Virus record (IMG/VR): IMGVR_UViG_3300008954_000034
Location: 1 to 64,000 of that record
Strand: one strand, 5' to 3'
DNA from: a virus
DNA: 64,000 bases
In this document: positions 2,636 to 63,430 of the stretch, piece by piece
Layout: every line of letters begins with the position of its first letter
How positions within the stretch are numbered: position 1 is the stretch's first letter
Made by a program: the position numbers and the translations under genes
Notes under the pieces: model-generated
Seen by the model: the letters and a program-made list of their open reading frames with translations, nothing else
Database searches by the model: none
Told to the model about the DNA's origin: nothing

Positions 2636-3298
2636 TCAAACCCAATCCTCCACAGGTCCAACCGTCTCTTTTAACGACACAAGTGCCTTTCTCTTCAGGC
2701 GAGCCACCCAGTTAGATGTACATCCTAAATCGTCTGCGATCTCCTGCGTGGAACGTTCATCCGCATTATACATCTGGCGGAGAACCTCCTTCTGCTTTGG
2801 ACTGATGTCGCCATTGGTCATGGACAGCATAACCTCGAGGACATCCTTCTCTTGGAGTGCTTTCGCAATGAGAGTGTCGTGCTGGGAAAAGTAGGGAGAA
2901 TCATCTGGTAAGTCAAGGTCGCTCATAGATCTCCGCGACCACGTCTCCTCTCGCTTCCACAAGCTCGCCATGGCGTCTCGAATCCACCAGTACCCGTATG
3001 ACATGTAACGAACACCGTGGCCGAGATCGAATCGGTCGATTCCAACTATGTCACCAAAGACCCCCTCTTGCACGAGGTCGGAAAGGAGTGGGTGGTTGTA
3101 ACTAGTTTGCTTAATCGCTATTTGTACGATGAGGGGGTAGTGCAGGGTAATCAGTTTATTTCGTGATTCAATGTTCCCCCGCTTGGCCCCCCAAATCAAA
3201 AGGTGCTCGTGAATCGGACGAGGGGGAGTTATGTTAATCCCGCTCAACAGCGTGGAAGACTGATTCCATAGATGCCCGTTTTTCCGACCAGAAAGCAC
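2636..3298 (-). CDS. Sigma-70 family RNA polymerase sigma factor
   Basis: It has 220 residues and a GTG start, with GGAG six bases before it. Region 2 is clear: DLVQEGVFGDIVGIDRFD followed by RYMSYGYWWIRDAM, the core-binding and -10 melting part. Region 4 is clear as SPKQKEVLRQMYNADERST then a helix-turn-helix with EIADDLGCTSNWVARLKRKA, which would contact a -35 box or an activator. The spacing between the regions is short, as in alternative sigma factors. A phage sigma usually redirects host RNA polymerase to phage promoters. It is a candidate reader of the CTATCATT promoters in this window; that link is inference. Confidence 0.9.
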   Translation of the reverse strand: MLSGRKNGHLWNQSSTLLSGINITPPRPIHEHLLIWGAKRGNIESRNKLITLHYPLIVQIAIKQTSYNHPLLSDLVQEGVFGDIVGIDRFDLGHGVRYMSYGYWWIRDAMASLWKREETWSRRSMSDLDLPDDSPYFSQHDTLIAKALQEKDVLEVMLSMTNGDISPKQKEVLRQMYNADERSTQEIADDLGCTSNWVARLKRKALVSLKETVGPVEDWV

Positions 3299-22432: not shown

Positions 22433-22440
22433 AATGATAG
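22433..22440 (-). promoter_or_regulatory. CTATCATT late-promoter candidate upstream of sheath
   Basis: The minus strand reads AGGTCTATCATTAATC, 32 bases before the sheath start codon. No -35-like hexamer lies 16-18 bases upstream. The site is in a 75-base gap between genes. Confidence 0.6.
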
Positions 22441-38497: not shown

Positions 38498-38756
38498 AGG
38501 CCCCTCGTTGCTGCGTAGTGAATAGTTGGTCTGTGACCACCTTAACATCATCTTCCTGAAACGGCTGAGGGTACACTCCCTCACCGTCAAATTGAATCCA
38601 TAGTAAAGTCACTGACCTCTTTCGAATCCGAATCTTCTTTGAGTCCACAACAAAGCCCTCGGCCCCGTTTCGAACTTCGAAGCTCACCCCACTATCAGTC
38701 ACCGATCTTCGGTTACCGACCCGGGATTGAAATTGTACTCGGTCTCCGTCAGCCAT
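38460..38756 (-). CDS. Small unknown beta-rich protein
   Basis: It has 98 residues; the ATG overlaps the previous stop as TAATG. Hydrophobic and charged residues alternate (GDRVQFQSRVG, VTLLWIQFDGEGVYPQPF), suggesting a small barrel. It may be cotranscribed from the promoter at 39578. No family is recognised. Confidence 0.55.
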   Translation of the reverse strand: MADGDRVQFQSRVGNRRSVTDSGVSFEVRNGAEGFVVDSKKIRIRKRSVTLLWIQFDGEGVYPQPFQEDDVKVVTDQLFTTQQRGAYAEGMCSTQVRG

Positions 38757-39544
38757 TATATGAGATCTCGGCGTTTAAGTGCCTCGTTGACCTTCCTACC
38801 AATGTACTCTTTCATCTTCTGTTCCCAACACTCCTTGAGGCTGGCTGGCCCGGGGAAGGCGTAGGGCGTAGGCTTTGCGTCACACCAGTAACGCCACGCA
38901 GTGCGTCGGCGCTCGCTGTCGGACGGTTCGCGGTGCTGCATCCCGTGAGCTTCATGAGTCGGGTCGTTACGAATACGCCAGTACTCGTCCTTGATATCGG
39001 TGTAAGCCTTCTGCTGCGCAGCGTTCGGTATCGGATGGTCCTTCCGCCACTTGTTCTCCAGTCGACTCCAAGCCCGGACAGCCACCAACGCGGTCTCCAT
39101 CGGCCACCCCTTCTCATCCATCACACGCTGGACCCGCTTTACCTCCTGTGGGTTAACGTACGCACGCTTGGCCAGCGTCCAACGATCTTGATCTTCTGGG
39201 GCAAGGGCGAGGGAATGGTTCTCGTAACATTCACAACCAACAACCATCAGTATGTTGCATTTGTCATGCTGAATGTAGTAGTGGTTTTTAATACGTGCGC
39301 CGCAGAGCTGGCATGCTTCTTCACCAATCCCAAATCGGGTGCTTACGGGCTTGTACCCCTTGGGAATCTTCCAGCAGATGGTTGGAGGATCACCTACACT
39401 CATATAGAAGCTGCATGGTGTCCATTCCGATGAGGACGTGTTGAGCTCGGAGAAAGTATCGCCCTGTCGACGTTGATACGCCGATCCCTGCTTCTTCTTA
39501 ACGCCCGGTATTGTTAGCTGTTGTCCTGTGTCTATCAATTCCAT
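38756..39544 (-). CDS. Unknown protein with zinc-finger-like CxxC
   Basis: It has 262 residues; GAGG lies nine bases before the ATG, and a good -35/-10 promoter ends about 35 bases upstream. CQLCGARI at about 78-85, with a later CEC at about 103-105, suggests metal binding. The C-terminal half is helical and basic, rich in Trp and Arg. It sits between head genes but does not look like a capsid protein. A regulator or nucleic-acid-binding role is possible. Confidence 0.55.
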   Translation of the reverse strand: MELIDTGQQLTIPGVKKKQGSAYQRRQGDTFSELNTSSSEWTPCSFYMSVGDPPTICWKIPKGYKPVSTRFGIGEEACQLCGARIKNHYYIQHDKCNILMVVGCECYENHSLALAPEDQDRWTLAKRAYVNPQEVKRVQRVMDEKGWPMETALVAVRAWSRLENKWRKDHPIPNAAQQKAYTDIKDEYWRIRNDPTHEAHGMQHREPSDSERRRTAWRYWCDAKPTPYAFPGPASLKECWEQKMKEYIGRKVNEALKRRDLI

Positions 39545-39577
39545 CTCACCAATCCTCGTCTAACTACGCACAGGTAC

Positions 39578-39606
39578 ATGATAACAATAACTTATACAGG
39601 AGTCAA
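39578..39606 (-). promoter_or_regulatory. Sigma-70-type promoter TTGACT-N17-TATCAT
   Basis: On the minus strand -35 TTGACT and -10 TATCAT are exactly 17 bases apart, followed by GTACCTGTGC. The same downstream bases follow other TATCAT boxes at 60.5, 62.8 and 63.3 kb. The -35 box overlaps the stop codon of the upstream gene. Confidence 0.8.
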
Positions 39607-52299: not shown

Positions 52300-55200
52300 T
52301 CAGATACCACTACACCCCGTGTCCGTTCCACAGTTCGGGCACCGGTGGCATGCTCCGTTTGGAACCATTATAGTTCCACACCCACCACACACAGGGCCTG
52401 CGTCTGCGGAAACCATAGCCGGAACCGACTGGATGGGTTCCATGGAAACGTTGTGCATCGTTACGTTCGGCATTGCTGGACGAGACGCAGCAAACGATAC
52501 GTTTTTAAATTCACCGTTACCGTTACCATTTCCGACAAGGTACTCTTCCGGTAACTCTTGGAAGGTGTGCATCTCCGGTACTTCAACTGGTGGGTTGTAT
52601 GTCAGGTACAGCCACTTGAAAATGTAATCTATAATACTGTCGGCTTCCTTGATGTCTTGGTTGGGGGTAAATCCATGCGGCTCAAATCTCATACCAGTAA
52701 ATCGGTCTACAAAGGTCTGCAATGGAATACCATGCTGGAACCCCAACGTAACCGCAGCGGCAAAGGCGTCAAGCAGCCCAGACAACGTTGACCCCTCCTT
52801 CGATATCACAACCATCAACGAAGATGGGAGACCGTCCGGATACTTACTCACCGACACGTACCCCTCGTGCCCGGAAACGTTGAACTTGTGCGTGATTGCC
52901 TTGGCGTCCCCGATAACCGGACGTGGTAGTGGAATGACAACTTCGTACTCCGGAGTTGCGTCATCACCCTCGCTCTTCGACGCGTAGGGCTGAATTGCCT
53001 TACACCCGTCACGATAAATGGACATCACCTTGATGCCCATTTCCCAGCCCTTCCAGTACACCTCTTCGATGTCCTCGACCGTGGCCGTATTTGGCATGTT
53101 GATAGTCTTCGAAACCGCTCCAGATAGGAAAGGTTGCACAGCTGCGACCATCTTCACATGGTCCATGTAGTGGATACTGCGCTCCCCGTTAAGCGGGGGA
53201 ATGGAACAATCGAATACTGGCAGGTGGTCATCCTTCAAATCTGGGCAGTTCTCGATGGTACCGTTGTCCGTCACGTAGTTAGCAATACTCGCAACGGCAT
53301 CGTCATCGTATCCGAGTGTGCGGAGGGCCTCGGGAACCAACCGGTTAACCATCTTCATCTCGCCGCCACCCACCAGACGTTTGAACTTAACAAGACCGAA
53401 CTCCGGTTCAATGCCGGTGGTGTCAGCGTCCATCATAAACGCAATAGTGTTGTGGCTCACAAACCCAGATACAACATAGGTGTTATTCATCGGGACTGAA
53501 AGGTCAACGGTCTTTTGAATACCAGCTTGGGTATTGGAAACTACAACATCGAAGTATACATCTCCGAGACTCAAAATCGCTGCGATTTTAGTTTTTCTTA
53601 GCTGCGGGTACTTACTTATCTTATCCCTTGCCCATAGTAGATTTATCGCCGCAGTTTTTCTTACTGCAATGTCCTGCCTTACTTCACTTGGAAGACCAAC
53701 AGACGCATCATAAAAGTCTTGCTGTATCACTGCATTCCTTATTGATATCCCGTGAGATTCATCGCCTGTACTGGTCGAAAGTCCGTCAGTGAGTCGGATT
53801 TTCTTCCTAGATGAAATAAATCCTATCTTATCAGCGTACACCCGTGCCGATCTTACGTTTGCCACACGAACTTCGTACCGCTGCTTATCACCAAATCTAT
53901 CTCCACTTTCTGGCTGTTGCCTCCGTGTAGTCATAATACCCAGAGACTCTAAAACAACCTGAACCTGATTAACAAGAACAGGACTCACTGTTGAAAACGC
54001 TACGCTAGGAGTTCCTTTCACCAATGTTACTGTACCATCAGCGTCAAATAACCCACGGATGAAGGCACAAACAACACTTGTGCGAGACTTAAGAATGGAA
54101 ATGGGTATTGATGCACCAAACGCCCCCTCCCCGTGGTTTCCTCTTGGTTTATCTGCAAGCCTGTTTGACTTAAGCCAGCGGACTAGTCTCCGAGATGGAA
54201 TCGTTACAGTATGACAGCCTGATCGTTCTTCAGACTGTATATGAACTCCAATACTTTCTGCCCATGACTCAAAAACTGAGTCTATATCTCTGTTATTATT
54301 AGGCACGGTAAGACAAAGACCATAGTTATCCTTAGTGTATCCATTGCCAACATAGTAACCAATGACCTCAGCCAGACGTTCATCAAGGACGTCTGGAAAA
54401 GTAATAGAAGATTCATTTCCATGTACTGGTGTTGAATCACCATGAAGAACTGTATAGGGCTTATCCATCAAAAGTTCTTCATGCCCACCAAGCCTGAAAA
54501 CCGCGAGATCGCCCGGCTTGATATCTTGGAACTTCCTCCACACATACTCACCACATTCATCAATAATACGAATCTTGTGGCCGTAAGTACCTACTAGCGC
54601 ATGCCCACGCTTCGTGGTAATTTCCATCACGTGGTCTTCTCCGTTAATGAAAAACTGAGAAGACTTCTCTACCGACTTCTCCTGCATGATATTAAGATCA
54701 AGGTCCTGCCACTTATCACCGTTTACGTCTCCAAGTACTCCCAGCGGAAGAATACCAGCAGATGACAATAACATAGTATCCGTAGCCAAACAGCCTGTAG
54801 GAGCCAGCAGCGTAAGCTGACCATTTCGAATCCCAGCCCCATGGGCAATAGAATTGCATACGTCAGCAAGGATGGTATTTGCCATGTCATATATCGGAGC
54901 AGTAAATCCATCAAGATCAAGGCCAAGACTCTCTGCGGCTGTCCGATGCTTTTCCATAACCCGCAAGTACGGGTCTCTATTCTCTTCAAACAGATCAAAT
55001 GGTCCGAGTTCATCTGCAACCTGACAGCTCATACTGGCGGCTGACGCGTGCATCAGCGCCGTTATAGCAGCGGCAACCCGACGTCCGTCCTCTGACCCAT
55101 ACGGAAGGCCCAGAACCATAAGCAGCCCACCGAGGTTGGCGTAACCAAGGCCCAACGGCCTGTGTGCCTTGCTGTTCCTTGCAATCTCCTCGGTCGGGTA

Positions 55201-56391
55201 GTCGACATTGGCAACCATGATCTCTTGTGCAAGGATGATGAGTTCCGATGCTCTACGGAAACGGTCCACTGCAAACGCACCGTCTTCGGTCTTGTACCTG
55301 ATGAGGTTATGGCTGGCAAGGTTACAGGCAGAGTTATTGATGTAGTGATACTCAGCACACGGATTACTGGCACCGAAGTAATGAGTGTTACTGACTGGGT
55401 TCCACATGTTTATCAGGGTGTCAAACTGAAGCCCCGGGTCTCCGGTCTCCCATGCGTTCTCTGCGATGGACCGGAAAAGGTCGGCTGCGTGGATCGTGTC
55501 TGACGTCTCTCCGTCGGTCACCCGTTTGAGATCCCAGTCTGACTTGTCGGCCACGGCCCGCATGAAGTCGTCTCCAACCCGAACACTGTGATTGGCATTC
55601 TGGTAGGCTACAGTTCCGTACGCATCGCCGTCAAGGCCACTACTATACCCAGCCGCTAAAAGATCACGGGCCTTCTGGTCTTCCTTGGTCTTGCACTTAA
55701 TGAAGTCTACGATGTCTGGGTGATCAATGTTCAGGATGATAATCTTTGCCGCACGTCGAGTACGGCCACCCGACTTAATTACACCAGCAAAGGCGTCGTA
55801 CCCCTTCATAAAGCTCACCGGGCCACTGGCCTTACCACCAGTTCCGGAAAGAGACTCGGTAGAACCACGAAGGGTGCTGAGGTTTACCCCAGCACCCGAC
55901 CCGCCTTTGAATATGATTGCCTCGTCCCGGGCCAGCTTCATTATTGATTCCATGCTGTCATCAACCTCGTTGATGAAGCATGCACTGGCCTGCTGAGGAC
56001 CGTCCGCACCAATATTAAACCACACCGGACTGTTGAAGGCAAAGTACTGGTTGATCAACAGCCAAGTCAGCTCATCAGAGAATGCCTCGGCGTCGTCAGC
56101 ATGGAAGTAACCGCCGTGTAAACCCCACTGCGTAATGGTACTGACAACCCGATTAATAACCTGCTTGATCGACGTCTCGCGCTGGGACGTTCCGGGTTCA
56201 CCACGAAAGTACTTAGAAACCGCGATGTTACTAGATTGATGTGACCACGTAATCGGAAATTCTACGTCTTCTTGCTTGAACACCGCTTCACCGTCAGCTC
56301 CGATAATCTTCGCGTCCCGCTTTTCCCATTCAATTTCGTCGTATGGATGAATGTCCGGATTGGAAAAGAGACGAGAGATACTTAACGCCAT
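52300..56391 (-). CDS. nrdJ: Class II ribonucleotide reductase with intein
   Basis: 1363 residues from ATG at 56391 (GGAG seven bases upstream); 915 remain after removing a 448-residue intein. Reductase marks: SACFINEV, NPCAEYHYINNSACNLASHN with the N-x-C-x-E active-site core, and TIAFMMDADTTGIEPEFG on the finger loop. The C-terminus has a TSCPD domain (GYVSVSKYPDG to IIDYIFKWL) and a zinc ribbon CGGCGTIM ... CPNCG. This layout belongs to adenosylcobalamin-dependent enzymes, which make deoxynucleotides without oxygen. The intein sits between APTG and TIAF in the active-site loop, so activity needs splicing. Confidence 0.92.
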   Translation of the reverse strand: MALSISRLFSNPDIHPYDEIEWEKRDAKIIGADGEAVFKQEDVEFPITWSHQSSNIAVSKYFRGEPGTSQRETSIKQVINRVVSTITQWGLHGGYFHADDAEAFSDELTWLLINQYFAFNSPVWFNIGADGPQQASACFINEVDDSMESIMKLARDEAIIFKGGSGAGVNLSTLRGSTESLSGTGGKASGPVSFMKGYDAFAGVIKSGGRTRRAAKIIILNIDHPDIVDFIKCKTKEDQKARDLLAAGYSSGLDGDAYGTVAYQNANHSVRVGDDFMRAVADKSDWDLKRVTDGETSDTIHAADLFRSIAENAWETGDPGLQFDTLINMWNPVSNTHYFGASNPCAEYHYINNSACNLASHNLIRYKTEDGAFAVDRFRRASELIILAQEIMVANVDYPTEEIARNSKAHRPLGLGYANLGGLLMVLGLPYGSEDGRRVAAAITALMHASAASMSCQVADELGPFDLFEENRDPYLRVMEKHRTAAESLGLDLDGFTAPIYDMANTILADVCNSIAHGAGIRNGQLTLLAPTGCLATDTMLLSSAGILPLGVLGDVNGDKWQDLDLNIMQEKSVEKSSQFFINGEDHVMEITTKRGHALVGTYGHKIRIIDECGEYVWRKFQDIKPGDLAVFRLGGHEELLMDKPYTVLHGDSTPVHGNESSITFPDVLDERLAEVIGYYVGNGYTKDNYGLCLTVPNNNRDIDSVFESWAESIGVHIQSEERSGCHTVTIPSRRLVRWLKSNRLADKPRGNHGEGAFGASIPISILKSRTSVVCAFIRGLFDADGTVTLVKGTPSVAFSTVSPVLVNQVQVVLESLGIMTTRRQQPESGDRFGDKQRYEVRVANVRSARVYADKIGFISSRKKIRLTDGLSTSTGDESHGISIRNAVIQQDFYDASVGLPSEVRQDIAVRKTAAINLLWARDKISKYPQLRKTKIAAILSLGDVYFDVVVSNTQAGIQKTVDLSVPMNNTYVVSGFVSHNTIAFMMDADTTGIEPEFGLVKFKRLVGGGEMKMVNRLVPEALRTLGYDDDAVASIANYVTDNGTIENCPDLKDDHLPVFDCSIPPLNGERSIHYMDHVKMVAAVQPFLSGAVSKTINMPNTATVEDIEEVYWKGWEMGIKVMSIYRDGCKAIQPYASKSEGDDATPEYEVVIPLPRPVIGDAKAITHKFNVSGHEGYVSVSKYPDGLPSSLMVVISKEGSTLSGLLDAFAAAVTLGFQHGIPLQTFVDRFTGMRFEPHGFTPNQDIKEADSIIDYIFKWLYLTYNPPVEVPEMHTFQELPEEYLVGNGNGNGEFKNVSFAASRPAMPNVTMHNVSMEPIQSVPAMVSADAGPVCGGCGTIMVPNGACHRCPNCGTDTGCSGI
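53449..54792 (-). mobile_element. Intein with LAGLIDADG endonuclease in the reductase
   Basis: 448 codons in frame. Block A is CLATDTML at the start; block B is ALVGTYGHKI; endonuclease motifs are LAEVIGYYVGNG and CAFIRGLFDADGTV; the end is YVVSGFVSHN, with Thr as the +1 residue. Cys1, TxxH, the final His-Asn and a +1 Thr complete the splicing set. The insertion point is a conserved catalytic loop, as in other reductase inteins. Confidence 0.93.
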
Positions 56392-56453
56392 GGGACATCT
56401 CCTATGGTACAAGATTTCTCAAGTGTTGTAGATAACCGAACGTAAGACTATGA

Positions 56454-59127: not shown

Positions 59128-59759
59128 GACTCCGCATCTTGTTCACTTAATGGTAGTTCATTATACCAGTATTCGTACGCCGTTTTCCACTGAAACTCGT
59201 CGGGGGTGTAAACTTCCCCGCGACTACACTCAAGACACGACGTACTAATCTCCCCACCCTCAAGGTAAATGTAATAGGTCTTTTCGCCACACTGCGGACA
59301 CTTCGGCGTTCTTATTGGACGAGGCAGGGACTTCCATAACAACCGAAACTCAGCCTCAACCAGCTTAATCGTACGGGGGTCTTTGGAGTACTCCTCCAGC
59401 AGTTCCCGCCTCGTCCGATAGAAGGCCACGGAGTACTGAGTCCGACGCATTCCGGGTTTAATCTTCTTTGACAGGTACTTGAAAAACTTAGTGTCTCGCA
59501 GTACGAGCATCGTCCGGACAGGCCAGTTATCGCGGAATGGTGGAATGAATGACTCAATGGTAGATCGTCCGAGGTCGCCAATCTGAAAGTACCTACCGTT
59601 CTTCGACCGCCGTACGTAACGCGGTGTTAGCCTGTCGGCGGATTCCCGGTAGGTCTCGTCGGTGAACTCAAGTCGGTTCAGTTCACCCTTTACACGTGCC
59701 CGCTCGGTCTGTACGTACAACTTGGTCAGGACTGCGATATCTTGCGCGTACAGCATCAT
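59124..59759 (-). CDS. Unknown protein with C-terminal zinc ribbon
   Basis: 211 residues, start coupled to the previous stop (TATGA). Basic helical segments (RYVRRSKNGRYFQIGD) come first. A zinc ribbon CPQCGEKTYYIYLEGG ... CLECSRG lies at about 152-182. It probably binds nucleic acid. Not recognised. Confidence 0.55.
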   Translation of the reverse strand: MMLYAQDIAVLTKLYVQTERARVKGELNRLEFTDETYRESADRLTPRYVRRSKNGRYFQIGDLGRSTIESFIPPFRDNWPVRTMLVLRDTKFFKYLSKKIKPGMRRTQYSVAFYRTRRELLEEYSKDPRTIKLVEAEFRLLWKSLPRPIRTPKCPQCGEKTYYIYLEGGEISTSCLECSRGEVYTPDEFQWKTAYEYWYNELPLSEQDAES

Positions 59760-60031
59760 AGATGAACGCCCAGTCCGGTTGTTAGCACCTCAAAGAACTT
59801 GGCCTCGTCGACGATCTTGGTGGTGCTGGCCGAGTCGTCTCGGACCAAGGACAGACGAACTCGACGGTCGCACACACCTTCAACTTCTGGAACGACGTCA
59901 ATGGAAAGTTTGAATGACTCGTTATCTTGCTCGCCATGTACAACTAATGGGCCAGCCCCTGCATCAATCTGCTCACGCTGCTCACGGATGGTTGATAGTA
60001 GGGCGGACTTCTCGAATTGCTGCTCCGACAT
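59756..60031 (-). CDS. Small unknown protein, first gene of an operon
   Basis: 91 residues; GAGG lies five bases before the ATG. A strong promoter sits about 30 bases upstream (60063). The pattern is a helical N-terminus then beta (FKLSIDVVPEVEGV). Downstream genes overlap, forming a three-gene operon with the zinc-ribbon and membrane proteins. Confidence 0.55.
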   Translation of the reverse strand: MSEQQFEKSALLSTIREQREQIDAGAGPLVVHGEQDNESFKLSIDVVPEVEGVCDRRVRLSLVRDDSASTTKIVDEAKFFEVLTTGLGVHL

Positions 60032-60062: not shown

Positions 60063-60091
60063 ATGATAAAGAAAAACCCCTACAGGGTCAA
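60063..60091 (-). promoter_or_regulatory. Promoter TTGACC-N17-TATCAT nested in a terminator
   Basis: The minus strand reads TTGACC, a 17-base spacer and TATCAT, followed by GTTGATG. The -35 box lies in the loop and inner stem of the upstream gene's terminator, so termination and initiation share the same bases. Confidence 0.8.
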
Positions 60092-60109
60092 GTGCTCCTG
60101 TAGAGGTTT
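60074..60109 (-). terminator. Terminator overlapping the -35 box
   Basis: A 12-bp stem with one G-U pair (AACCTCTACAGG with CCTGTAGGGGTT), then TTTTT on the minus strand. It ends the 60127-60441 gene. Confidence 0.8.
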
Positions 60110-60126
60110 GTGGGGTTCCGGTCGTT

Positions 60127-60441
60127 TTACTTTGGTTCGGTCGCCTGTGTCAGGGCGGCAAGATTTACGTGATATGTCTTGGAAGTCCAAGAGTTGCCTT
60201 CGTAGTCAAGTTCAAAAACCAGCTCGGTCTCGCCCTTGGCGATCTTCTCGCCGGTGATCCGGCAGCGGGCTCGGCCAGTTGCGGTCTTTATCTCGATCAG
60301 GCTGTTCGGGTTGAACCAAGGTGTGCGGCTGATGATGGTGTCCTTATCTCCCCGCACACTGTTGCGATGGTTTTCATAAGCCTCTGCAAGTTCGTGAATC
60401 TCGTTTGCGGGCAGGGTCTTGAATTCGGTCTTGGTTTCCAT
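60127..60441 (-). CDS. Small unknown protein (PARP-finger-like pattern)
   Basis: 104 residues from ATG at 60441, with GGAGG seven bases upstream; the longer frame upstream crosses the promoter and tmRNA terminator and is rejected. Residues 55-100 read IEIKTATGRARCRITGEKIA and then SKTYHVNLAAL, which recalls a PARP-type zinc finger, but most cysteines are missing. Function unknown. Confidence 0.6.
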   Translation of the reverse strand: METKTEFKTLPANEIHELAEAYENHRNSVRGDKDTIISRTPWFNPNSLIEIKTATGRARCRITGEKIAKGETELVFELDYEGNSWTSKTYHVNLAALTQATEPK

Positions 60442-60478
60442 GGGGCGTCCTCCGGGGTTGTTTACTTTGCACATGTAC

Positions 60479-60507
60479 ATGATAACACAAAGCGAGCCGG
60501 AAAGCAA
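60479..60507 (-). promoter_or_regulatory. Promoter TTGCTT-N17-TATCAT nested in tmRNA terminator
   Basis: -35 TTGCTT and -10 TATCAT are 17 bases apart on the minus strand, followed by GTACATGTGC. The -35 box sits inside the terminator hairpin of the tmRNA gene. Confidence 0.75.
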
Positions 60508-60538
60508 CCTCATGTACATGAGATGCTCTCCGGCTCTT
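60492..60538 (-). terminator. tmRNA terminator
   Basis: A stem GAGCCGGA with TCCGGCTC (60494-60501 and 60529-60536) encloses the palindrome CTCATGTACATGAG, then a CGCTTTG run on the minus strand. It lies 13 bases after the tmRNA CCA end. Confidence 0.7.
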
Positions 60539-60550
60539 AAGCGAGGATAC

Positions 60551-60899
60551 TGGTGGAGACGTGGGGAATCGAACCCCAGTCCGAATGGTTTTACCAACCC
60601 CATTCTACGTGCGTAGTCTACTCAGACCGCAGACAGGTCATCACCGTGTATTTTGTGCTCCGGGACACGATAAAACCGGATCAACACAACCCAGAGGATT
60701 GAAGTGCCGACATTTGTCGACCGGAAATCCTGAGTCGCTATCGGCTTGCTACTCAGGGTCCGGGAGATGACTACTGTTTAAGCAGCCGCTCTCAAGGGAG
60801 TTTGCTCTTCAGCAATTATGGATGTTCTGCCCTCTTGCAGTTGGACAGCCACTGGCACGCATGAAATCAACTTACCACCCGTCGAAACCAATCGTCCCC
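60551..60899 (-). ncRNA. ssrA: tmRNA (ssrA), phage-encoded
   Basis: 349 bases with CCA encoded. The acceptor stem GGGGACG (5') pairs with CGTCTCC (3') with one G-U pair. The 5' part has TTTCGACGGG, the tmRNA hallmark; the 3' part has TGGGGTTCGATTCCCCA as the T-arm and CACGTAGA before it. A tag frame GCT GAA GAG CAA ACT CCC TTG AGA GCG GCT GCT TAA lies at 60778-60813 and encodes AEEQTPLRAAA (ATT just before may be the resume codon). It rescues stalled ribosomes by trans-translation. Pseudoknots are likely but I did not fold them. Confidence 0.93.
60778..60813 (-). other. tmRNA tag-peptide reading frame
   Basis: It encodes AEEQTPLRAAA and then a TAA stop. Ending in Ala-Ala fits recognition by ClpXP-type proteases, but the end is RAAA rather than the usual ALAA. 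The resume codon is taken as GCT; ATT is possible. Confidence 0.75.
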
Positions 60900-60927
60900 G
60901 CTTGTGAAAGATCAATGGTACAAACTT

Positions 60928-61428
60928 CTATTCACCGTCAGCTAGTGTACGCTGTGAATTCTTAATCACCGTCTGCACTGAATCAGCTGCGGCTGTCATT
61001 CCAGCCCGGTAGTACAAGTTACCTAAAAACCAGCGGAAGAAGTTAATGCCTTGTAACGTACCGGCAGTAGCCTCTTCCCCCTGTAAGAGCAGCTGTTCCT
61101 CCCATCTCGGAAGGATCAGCTCCATCGCAGTTACAGTCACAATAGGAGAAACTGATCTGTGGTCGGCGAGCTGGTAATAGCAATATACAGTCACCGCTCT
61201 ATCACGGAGTGCGTTGATCGACTCAGGTCCAAACAACGTGACTGCCAGCTCAGCAGCTGCACTCGAGTTAGTATAAGCAACATAAAAGTTCTCGTCAAGC
61301 GCATCGTAGTAAGCAGTCACACGTAGTGACTTATACAAGAGCTCGTCCATACTCAGTTCTTGCTCTGGTTGGCCCAGAACCATGGAAGTGAGCATTAACG
61401 ATAATAGCAATGTCAAGATGTACTTCAT
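60928..61428 (-). CDS. Exported protein with signal peptide, unknown
   Basis: 166 residues. The N-terminus KYILTLLLSLMLTSMVLGQP is a signal peptide with likely cleavage before Gln or after Gly. The mature part is helical with many Tyr and Leu. AGGA precedes the ATG by nine bases. It lies between tRNA-Pro and tmRNA. It may act in the envelope, for example in superinfection exclusion, but no motif supports that. Confidence 0.55.
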   Translation of the reverse strand: MKYILTLLLSLMLTSMVLGQPEQELSMDELLYKSLRVTAYYDALDENFYVAYTNSSAAAELAVTLFGPESINALRDRAVTVYCYYQLADHRSVSPIVTVTAMELILPRWEEQLLLQGEEATAGTLQGINFFRWFLGNLYYRAGMTAAADSVQTVIKNSQRTLADGE

Positions 61429-61449
61429 GGTCTTCTATCCTGTTAGACT

Positions 61450-61514
61450 GAGACGGTGCAGCCCTATTAGCAACCAAGCACGTGGCTGGTGCAGGATGGA
61501 TACTGCACCGTCTC
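61450..61514 (-). repeat. 12-bp perfect inverted repeat upstream of the exported protein
   Basis: GAGACGGTGCAG (61450-61461) pairs with CTGCACCGTCTC (61503-61514). A second imperfect stem (GCAACCAAGC with GCTGGTGC) lies in the 41-base loop. It lies within the 242-base leader between tRNA-Pro and the exported-protein gene and could be a regulatory structure. Confidence 0.7.
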
Positions 61515-61575
61515 TTAATCGAACCCGGTGCCGCGAGATTCCACCTCGTGGAAAGGTTCAATGGGTTGTCAAAGT

Positions 61576-61666
61576 CTGGTGGTCGACTGGTTCTCCGGAG
61601 GAGTCGTTCCCCAGCCTCTGGAACAGAGCCGCAGCGCTCCTCACACTACGGTTGCCCCACCACCAG
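61576..61666 (-). repeat. Long-range inverted repeat downstream of tRNA-Pro
   Basis: CTGGTGGT (61576-61583) pairs with ACCACCAG (61659-61666), enclosing inner stems such as GTTCC with GGAAC. It lies directly after the tRNA. It lacks a T-loop, so it is not a second tRNA. It may be a structured RNA. Confidence 0.5.
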
Positions 61667-61670
61667 TTTG

Positions 61671-61746
61671 TCGGAGATACAGGATTCGAACCTGTGGCCC
61701 CCTGCTCCCAAAGCAGGTGCGCTCTACCGGACTGCGCCAATCTCCG
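61671..61746 (-). tRNA. tRNA-Pro (UGG)
   Basis: 76 bases. Acceptor CGGAGAT pairs with ATCTCCG plus discriminator A. The anticodon arm is CCTGC-TTTGGGA-GCAGG with anticodon TGG; the T-arm is ACAGG-TTCGAAT-CCTGT. CCA is not encoded. It reads CCA and other Pro codons. Confidence 0.95.
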
Positions 61747-62276
61747 ATGAGGAGTCACCACTTGCCCCGTTGCCCGCGTTCGCGGTTCAGCCGCTCTGTC
61801 GCCTTAATCCCCGTTTCCGGTTGAGGCCGAGAGCCAACGTTGGGTTCGTGACAACCCCTGTCTGATTGTCAAAGTAACCTGCTGATAATACTACCTACAC
61901 CCCACATTACACCAATGCTGCGGGGAGGCCAGTACCGGTTACCAACCACCGCGCACTACAAAGGTTCATCTGACAGCCATCGACGCAGATGTTAGCGTCA
62001 GAATGGGTCACCCACTCCCACATTCCTCAATAGTATCCAACCGTAGTCAGCGCCAGAAAAGGAAAGTGTTAGTCTCCAGTTCTATTGATCTACGATCTGA
62101 GGTAGCAAGGACTCCACATCGTTCCACAGAACTTCGGACGGTCCTTGGTCTCGTATTCAGCAGGTTGTCAAAGAACGTTCCCGCTACTTGGTCCATCCAC
62201 ACGAGCGGTCAGCGTGGTTGTCGATGAGCGAGGCTATGCCATGGCTCGCTCTGGTACTAATATACGTTCAACCGGG
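61747..62276 (-). other. 530-base region without a gene
   Basis: No convincing coding frame. It holds two of three copies of CTTTGACAA (minus strand; 61866-61874 and 62165-62173, with a third at 61566-61574), spaced 300 and 299 bases. Small hairpins occur (GAGCGAG with CTCGCTC at 62226-62251, a terminator candidate for the gene ending at 62277; AAGGAC with GTCCTT near 62108-62147). It may hold processed RNAs. Confidence 0.5.
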
Positions 62277-62804
62277 CTACGCAGCAACTGCCGCCCGGAC
62301 CCTCTTCATCTCATCCTGCAACCACTCAAACTTGAGCTGTTCGAATGCTCGAAAGGCTGGAATGCACTCCGGGCCGCCGTTCCACAAGTCCGGATGATCT
62401 CGAATGGTAAGCTGGGTCGCGGTACTGCGGACCAAGTCATCCACGTGATCGAGATGGTTGATCTCGCGGCACGCCTCGTAAAGCTCAATGGCGCTGCTGT
62501 AAATCCGCAGTCCAAGCAGGTGGCTCTTGGCAGCGTACGCTGCGGCCTTCTTATCCTCGTGCCCGCTGCTGCAAATGCAAGGATAAAGACACTCTGGATC
62601 GTCCGTGTGAATCAGGAAATACCCCCAGCCATTGCGCGGGTCGCGGAAGACGACCGCTGTCTGCTTGTCGCTGGTGATGTACATCGGGGCGTAGCTGCCA
62701 CCAAGCATCTTCTGAATCTTGTGCCCGGCGTCTTGCTTGGCTGCGGTCACGTTGCGACCCTCGCCCTCAACACCGTAGTACTCGACCTTGACCTTGGTAC
62801 TCAT
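62277..62804 (-). CDS. Unknown 175-residue protein
   Basis: GGAGG lies five bases before the ATG; a nested promoter lies about 35 bases upstream. The sequence is mixed alpha/beta (VEYYGVEGEGRNVTAAKQDA; TAVVFRDPRNGWGYFLIHTD) with CICSSGHEDKKA near residue 78. The first part recalls a double-stranded-RNA-binding-like layout, weakly. Function unknown. Confidence 0.6.
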   Translation of the reverse strand: MSTKVKVEYYGVEGEGRNVTAAKQDAGHKIQKMLGGSYAPMYITSDKQTAVVFRDPRNGWGYFLIHTDDPECLYPCICSSGHEDKKAAAYAAKSHLLGLRIYSSAIELYEACREINHLDHVDDLVRSTATQLTIRDHPDLWNGGPECIPAFRAFEQLKFEWLQDEMKRVRAAVAA

Positions 62805-62839
62805 AAAATCCTCCAGTGGTTGTTACATTGCACATCTAC

Positions 62840-62868
62840 ATGATAAGAAAAGCCCCTGCTGGATGCAA
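62840..62868 (-). promoter_or_regulatory. Promoter TTGCAT-N17-TATCAT nested in a terminator
   Basis: -35 TTGCAT, 17 bases, -10 TATCAT, then GTAGATGTGC on the minus strand. The -35 box is in the loop of the terminator at 62851-62883. Confidence 0.8.
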
Positions 62869-62883
62869 GCTCCAACAGAGGCT
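62851..62883 (-). terminator. Terminator overlapping the -35 box
   Basis: A 13-bp stem with G-U pairs (AGCCTCTGTTGGA with TCCAGCAGGGGCT) and a 7-base loop, then TTTTCTT. It ends the gene at 62902. Confidence 0.85.
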
Positions 62884-62901
62884 CTTGTATAACTTAGTGA
62901 A

Positions 62902-63207
62902 TCAGTTCATCGAGTGGTCCGCAACCTTCGGGGTCTCGACCGGGACGGGAACCAGCCGGTAGTTCTCGTCGCCCTCGGTGATGCTGCCGGACATCCGACC
63001 GCCGTTGCCACCGAAGTGAATGTAGAAGCAGCAGTAAGCCCGACCGTCGATGAGGTTGTCACCCCGGGCGTGAACTTCTGCGATCTCATACGGACCGTGG
63101 TACTTGGCGTTTGGCTTGGCCACGCTCGGCGTGGTGAAAGCCTGCATGTCGAGGGTCCACTCCAGCCACATTCCGGGCTGCAAGGATTCTACTTCGGCGC
63201 GGGTCAT
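62902..63207 (-). CDS. Unknown 101-residue beta-rich protein
   Basis: GGAGG lies five bases before the ATG; a nested promoter is about 47 bases upstream. GMWLEWTLDMQAFT and YCCFYIHFGGNGGRMSG suggest a small barrel. It is a single-gene unit between two terminators. Not recognised. Confidence 0.6.
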   Translation of the reverse strand: MTRAEVESLQPGMWLEWTLDMQAFTTPSVAKPNAKYHGPYEIAEVHARGDNLIDGRAYCCFYIHFGGNGGRMSGSITEGDENYRLVPVPVETPKVADHSMN

Positions 63208-63253
63208 GGTGACCTCCGGGTTAGGTTACGGGCGGTGCCCGATGCACATGTAC

Positions 63254-63282
63254 ATGATAACAAAACCCCCTATAGGATGCAA
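63254..63282 (-). promoter_or_regulatory. Promoter TTGCAT-N17-TATCAT nested in a terminator
   Basis: -35 TTGCAT, 17 bases, -10 TATCAT, then GTACATGTGC on the minus strand, matching the 60479 site base for base after the -10 box. Confidence 0.8.
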
Positions 63283-63294
63283 GTCCTATAGAGG
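63267..63294 (-). terminator. Terminator overlapping the -35 box
   Basis: An 11-bp stem (CCTCTATAGGA with TCCTATAGGGG, one G-U pair) with a 6-base loop, then TTTTG. It would end transcripts coming from 63.4-63.9 kb. Confidence 0.8.
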
Positions 63295-63430
63295 ATTAGT
63301 AAGAGCACACATGACTGCGTTGTTGAAAACCGAGGAGTCTGAGGCTACTTATCCCATCCAATAACCTCGATAAGAACTGCGAATTCATCACCGGTTGGAA
63401 TTGAAATCTGGTTTCCACCCTTTTAGTTTC
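63295..63430 (-). other. Gap with an open frame lacking a normal start
   Basis: One minus-strand frame encodes KGGNQISIPTGDEFAVLIEV and then IGWDK before a TAG, which looks like real protein sequence, but the only possible start after the upstream TAA is ATT. It may be a remnant or a tiny gene with an unusual start. Confidence 0.3.

Follow-up and report, generated by a model that had tools for sequence, protein, structure and literature searches.

The T4-type phages RB49 and phi1 reportedly carry PeSEs (promoter-early stem-loop elements), through which related phages are reported to gain, lose and shuffle genes (Arbiol et al. 2010, Genome Biol Evol 2:140-152, as cited in PMC4177764). Two segments of the RB49 record hold ten promoters, which we take to be the published PeSEs, in which a hairpin of 6-8 pairs fills the 17-base spacer between an intact TTGACA or TTGACG and the -10 box (e.g. 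ttgacaGGGGATCGGTGATCCCCtatact); these hairpins have no T-tract, and most of the promoters have similar bases after the -10 box. On the bacterial side, the frd terminator and the ampC promoter of E. coli overlap, neighbouring transcription units sharing a small space. According to excerpts of two reports, bacterial polymerase mostly stays on the DNA after intrinsic termination and can restart in vitro at nearby promoters, with restart increased by sigma (PMC6978380; PMC6978322). A literature search for terminator-promoter overlap in phages found nothing direct.

The element described here resembles the RB49 promoters in being a repeated, intergenic sigma70-type promoter with a 17-base spacer, a hairpin that overlaps the core promoter and conserved bases after the -10 box, scattered between small genes of unknown function. 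Its geometry differs. The -35 box itself forms the hairpin loop or is placed within the 3' arm, and the 5' arm precedes the promoter; most units also have a T-tract occupying the last part of the spacer. Spacer-only hairpin promoters, ten in the RB49 segments, number zero in the present phage, and no sequence kinship between its units and the RB49 elements was found. The carrier does not present as a T4-type phage, having no DNA match among phage records and a distant tail sheath and baseplate. Because the geometry differs and the phage is unrelated, we do not file the units as PeSEs; judged from their sequence, they are a compact form of a gene-cassette strategy known from T4-type phages. The frd/ampC overlap is a single chromosomal case, whereas the present units form a repeated element with the -35 box in the hairpin loop. 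Polymerase recycling is, in the excerpts cited, a general behaviour of the enzyme in vitro rather than a sequence element, and overlapping signals lie outside the scope of those excerpts; a terminator beside a promoter could likewise feed it released polymerase (PMC6978380; PMC6978322).

The phage and its record

The viral record IMGVR_UViG_3300008954_000034, from an uncultivated bacterial virus, is 77,954 bases long, and its first 64,000 bases make up the window. A near-identical record of the same virus, IMGVR_UViG_3300009008_000009 (127,741 bases), has the sequence permuted differently. The minus strand carries nearly all large genes of the phage, which appears to be a myovirus whose tail sheath and baseplate are only distantly like those of known phages: the best similarity of the tail sheath is about 29%, to Gordonia and mycobacterial myoviruses, and the sole matches of the baseplate protein are in Bacillus phage G. 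Its recognisable genes include:

2636-3298, minus strand: phage-encoded sigma factor gene, with sigma70 regions 2 and 4
52300-56412, minus strand: class II ribonucleotide reductase, split by an intein with a LAGLIDADG endonuclease
about 71,324-71,770, beyond the window, minus strand: macro-domain protein
about 73,914-75,901, beyond the window, minus strand: adjacent genes for a GroEL-like (547 aa) and a GroES-like (99 aa) protein

A near-DNA search of INPHARED phage records with the unit region gave 0 matches. Searches of IMG/VR with the tail sheath and the ribonucleotide reductase returned only records of the same phage and two distant ones, whose examined stretches lack nested units, and a DNA-pattern search of IMG/VR for the element returned the same virus and otherwise chance matches without the layout. 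No related phage with the element, or with diverged gene content, was found in these INPHARED and IMG/VR searches.

Nested units in the window and beyond

A sequence-only reading of this DNA had described four places at which the terminator hairpin of one gene carries the -35 box of the next promoter. All four are indeed strong hairpins with the -35 box inside, and the spacer to TATCAT is exactly 17 bases in 4/4. They all lie on the minus strand, which that reading had left out. The -35 box is in the hairpin loop in three of the four and in the 3' arm in unit 60484, units being named after the first base of the -10 box:

60063..60112, minus strand: unit 60068, ACCTCTACAGGAGCAC-TTGACC-CTGTAGGGGTTTTTCTT-TATCAT-GTTGATGTAA; -35 box TTGACC at 60091-60086 in the loop, -10 box TATCAT at 60068-60063
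60469..60538, minus strand: unit 60484, GAGCCGGAGAGCATCTCATGTACATGAGG-TTGCTT-TCCGGCTCGCTTTGTGT-TATCAT-GTACATGTGC; -35 box TTGCTT at 60507-60502 in the 3' arm, -10 box TATCAT at 60484-60479, loop containing CATGTACATG
62830..62886, minus strand: unit 62845, GCCTCTGTTGGAGC-TTGCAT-CCAGCAGGGGCTTTTCT-TATCAT-GTAGATGTGC; 16-pair hairpin, -35 box TTGCAT at 62868-62863 in the loop, -10 box TATCAT at 62845-62840, TTTTCT tract
63244..63297, minus strand: unit 63259, CCTCTATAGGAC-TTGCAT-CCTATAGGGGGTTTTGT-TATCAT-GTACATGTGC; 14-pair hairpin, -35 box TTGCAT at 63282-63277 in the loop, -10 box TATCAT at 63259-63254, TTTTG tract

The 17-base spacer of unit 60068 includes TTTTTCTT, and its hairpin follows the stop codon of the gene that ends at 60127. 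The bases after the -10 box, which had also been called conserved, are GTACATGTGC exactly in two units, with one change in 62845 and loosely in 60068.

These four units are about half of the total. Three extra hairpin units of the same layout lie just beyond the window (first base of the -10 box at 64441, 65824 and 68536), giving 7 in the 77,954-base record. The stem of unit 65824 is strong, with 16 pairs (z -5.4). Two promoters of this record, at 76974 and 39583, belong to the same family but have no strong hairpin, and the longer record IMGVR_UViG_3300009008_000009 has one more non-hairpin member, with TATAAT, at 52,564. The distance between the -35 and -10 boxes is 17 bases in all family promoters, with or without a hairpin. 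The example in the window is:

39568..39606, minus strand: promoter 39583, without strong hairpin, TTGACT-N17-TATCAT-GTACCTGTGC, preceding a 262-aa gene at 38756-39544

None of the Rfam families matches the units.

Genes around the units

Most joints run from stop codon to hairpin, promoter, ribosome site and start codon within about 95-110 bases. Units 60068, 62845, 64441 and 65824 have the stop codon of the gene before them 56-58 bases ahead of the -10 box, and a start codon, with a ribosome-binding site before it, stands 31-49 bases after the -10 box in units 60068, 62845, 63259, 64441 and 65824. The neighbouring genes in the window are:

59756..60031, minus strand: 91-aa gene served by unit 60068
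60127..60435, minus strand: small gene of about 102 aa served by unit 60484
60551-60899, minus strand: tmRNA gene, tag AEEQTPLRAAA; the hairpin of unit 60484 comes directly after it, as its apparent terminator
61670-61746: tRNA-Pro, near the tmRNA
62277..62804, minus strand: 175-aa gene served by unit 62845
62902..63207, minus strand: 101-aa gene served by unit 63259; 56 bases separate its stop from the -10 box that follows

The small proteins encoded after the units have no match to anything with a known function. Compared among themselves, the unit-served proteins show no similarity (best E 0.26), and identity between units falls to background level beyond the hairpin-promoter core. The genes being mutually unrelated, what is repeated is the regulatory element and not the genes: the duplicated cassette suggested by the sequence-only reading survives for the element, and gene duplication is rejected as the origin of the repeats because the encoded proteins are unrelated.

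Chance expectation and selection on the stem

We scanned all 77,954 bases of the record for TTG-N20-TATMAT accompanied by a hairpin spanning the -35 box. The scan gave the 7 units, with stem scores of 13-16, whereas 100 shuffled genomes yielded a mean of 0.03 units scoring at least 9 and a best score of 10. A further match at 70036 was not counted: it falls within coding sequence, is rich in G-T pairs and is without the downstream motif. In folding, 7/7 hairpins beat 300/300 shuffles of their own sequence (z -4.0 to -6.0); the three non-hairpin family promoters do not beat theirs. A generic consensus scan of the unit region for promoter-like and terminator-like sites showed no excess, and the signal therefore lies in the combination of promoter and terminator. 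Other viral DNA around groEL genes (1.13 Mb) contained 3 weaker nested cases, two of which are one sequence.

When the five loop-type hairpins were aligned, 95.7% of the pair cells were standard and 5/14 pairs were altered on both sides. Their covariation reached 0.45, against 0.20 in shuffled controls (0/500 reach it) and at most 0.13 when the alignment was slid; as five hairpins are few, and are paralogues of one genome, the shuffle control is not to be read as a probability. The alignment gives good but limited evidence that pairing in the stem is retained as its letters change, with the -35 box in the loop held in place.

Terminator and promoter signals

The T-tract is good in units 60068, 62845, 63259 and 64441, which combine the features of an intrinsic terminator, namely a G-C hairpin, a T-rich tract directly after it and a position at a gene end. 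Units 60484, 68536 and 65824 have the hairpin with a tract that is weak, weak and absent, respectively, and may for this reason terminate poorly. Ordinary, non-nested hairpin terminators are few in the phage (one after groEL at 73886-73858, another near 34.5 kb). Their occurrence elsewhere makes nesting a trait of the unit gene region and not the only way in which this phage ends transcripts.

All units have the sigma70-type arrangement of TTG, a 17-base spacer and TATCAT. Unit 60068 matches the sigma70 consensus at 10/12 positions and the other units at about 8/12; the -35 box agrees with the consensus at 3/6 bases in most units and at 5/6 in 60068. From the TTG-17-TATCAT form, it is likely that a host sigma factor uses the unit promoters. 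Their expression may be early, as the sequence-only reading implied; the phage has a sigma factor of its own.

Conservation extends to both sides of the promoter. The bases after the -10 box are strongly conserved among the promoters (0.77-0.85 identity). A block just upstream of the -35 box, roughly CTYNTGTAYANGAC, is common to hairpin and non-hairpin promoters, with 0.41 identity against 0.22-0.29 in the adjoining upstream blocks (permutation, 0/10000). This block forms part of the hairpin 5' arm in loop-type units and may be a regulator site or reflect shared promoter descent. A dyad, CATGTACATG, overlaps the -10 box and a related dyad lies just upstream of the -35 box.

Discussion

We propose that in each unit an intrinsic terminator is superimposed on a sigma70-type promoter, the pair insulating and starting small accessory genes, and we consider this probable. 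The polymerase finishing the upstream gene would make the hairpin, the 3' arm and U-tract of which are also the -35/-10 spacer, and would stop a few bases before the -10 box. The polymerase of the next gene would use the -35 box in the hairpin loop (or 3' arm) plus the TATCAT after it. One stretch of about 60 bases would insulate and start each accessory gene, and small genes could be stacked as independent cassettes spaced about 100 bases apart. It is from sequence that we infer the termination, initiation and insulating roles. A polymerase that terminates after the upstream gene would necessarily occupy the promoter, so that arrival and initiation would be momentarily exclusive, a competition that would follow from the geometry. 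The nesting seen by the sequence-only reading is supported by sequence, folding, statistics and compensatory changes.

The same observations could be read in other ways. The hairpin could serve mainly as an RNA structure with a role other than termination, for example shielding the upstream mRNA against nucleases at its 3' end, with the promoter as the only transcription signal. The strong stem of 65824 without a T-tract, the poor tracts of 60484 and 68536 and the RB49 spacer hairpins, which likewise lack a T-run, would fit such a role; given that the stem runs straight into a textbook T-rich tail in four units and that the hairpins directly follow stop codons or the tmRNA end, we regard it as unlikely. 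We also think it quite unlikely that the repeats are operators of a putative phage regulator, bound at dyads that share a TGTAYA-like core, one immediately before the -35 box and one over the -10 box; the hairpin would then arise incidentally, from the match between the upstream dyad and the spacer. The strong conservation after the -10 box and the block shared before the -35 box by hairpin and non-hairpin promoters speak for operators, but the compensatory changes preserve the whole stem, a dyad alone does not need T-tracts and the shared letters are also explicable by common descent of the promoters. Simple chance is extremely improbable: short intergenic regions in compact phage DNA should produce occasional promoter/terminator overlaps, and the 1.13 Mb of other viral DNA did contain 3 weak ones, yet here there are 7 in 78 kb, with identical geometry and covarying stems, against 0.03 expected.

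A further possibility would add to the superimposed terminator and promoter and is compatible with it: polymerase released in the spacer might stay on the DNA and re-engage the promoter beneath it, one polymerase thereby serving gene after gene along the array. The excerpts cited above document restart in vitro following intrinsic termination (PMC6978380; PMC6978322), and the terminator-promoter distance in the units is zero; however, polymerase can already slide over hundreds of bases, so that overlap is not needed, and space economy accounts for the overlap without restart. We hold such coupling to be quite unlikely. More speculatively, the conserved GTACATGTGC might be the binding site of a putative regulator, with released polymerases restarting at the same site. 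In the fullest version, termination would load polymerase onto the promoter occupying the same bases, each gene would prime the next and a regulator acting at the CATGTACATG dyad would gate the array; this relay we find very doubtful.

If the superimposed terminator and promoter are real, some 60 bases would be selected as RNA hairpin and as promoter at the same positions, with the -35 box constant as the loop. The units would then offer a natural test piece for termination and initiation competing or cooperating at one site, as well as a minimal part for stacking independently expressed genes, and would suggest more than one origin of hairpin-promoter cassettes in phages, with different geometry.

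Other sequence features of the record

Between the tmRNA and unit 62845, CTTTGACAA recurs on the minus strand at about 61574, 61875 and 62173 (stretch 61557-62173). The copies sit in an 848-base stretch without clear genes except the tRNA and without an Rfam family; no matching -10 box was seen by eye. A YCTATCATT-like motif is repeated on the minus strand at 22439, 38167, 41029, 57761, 63511 and 64876, several copies being intergenic and without an obvious -35 box. These copies are candidate promoters for the phage sigma factor, which may give the phage a promoter class of its own. Beyond the window, the macro-domain protein points to possible ADP-ribose processing.
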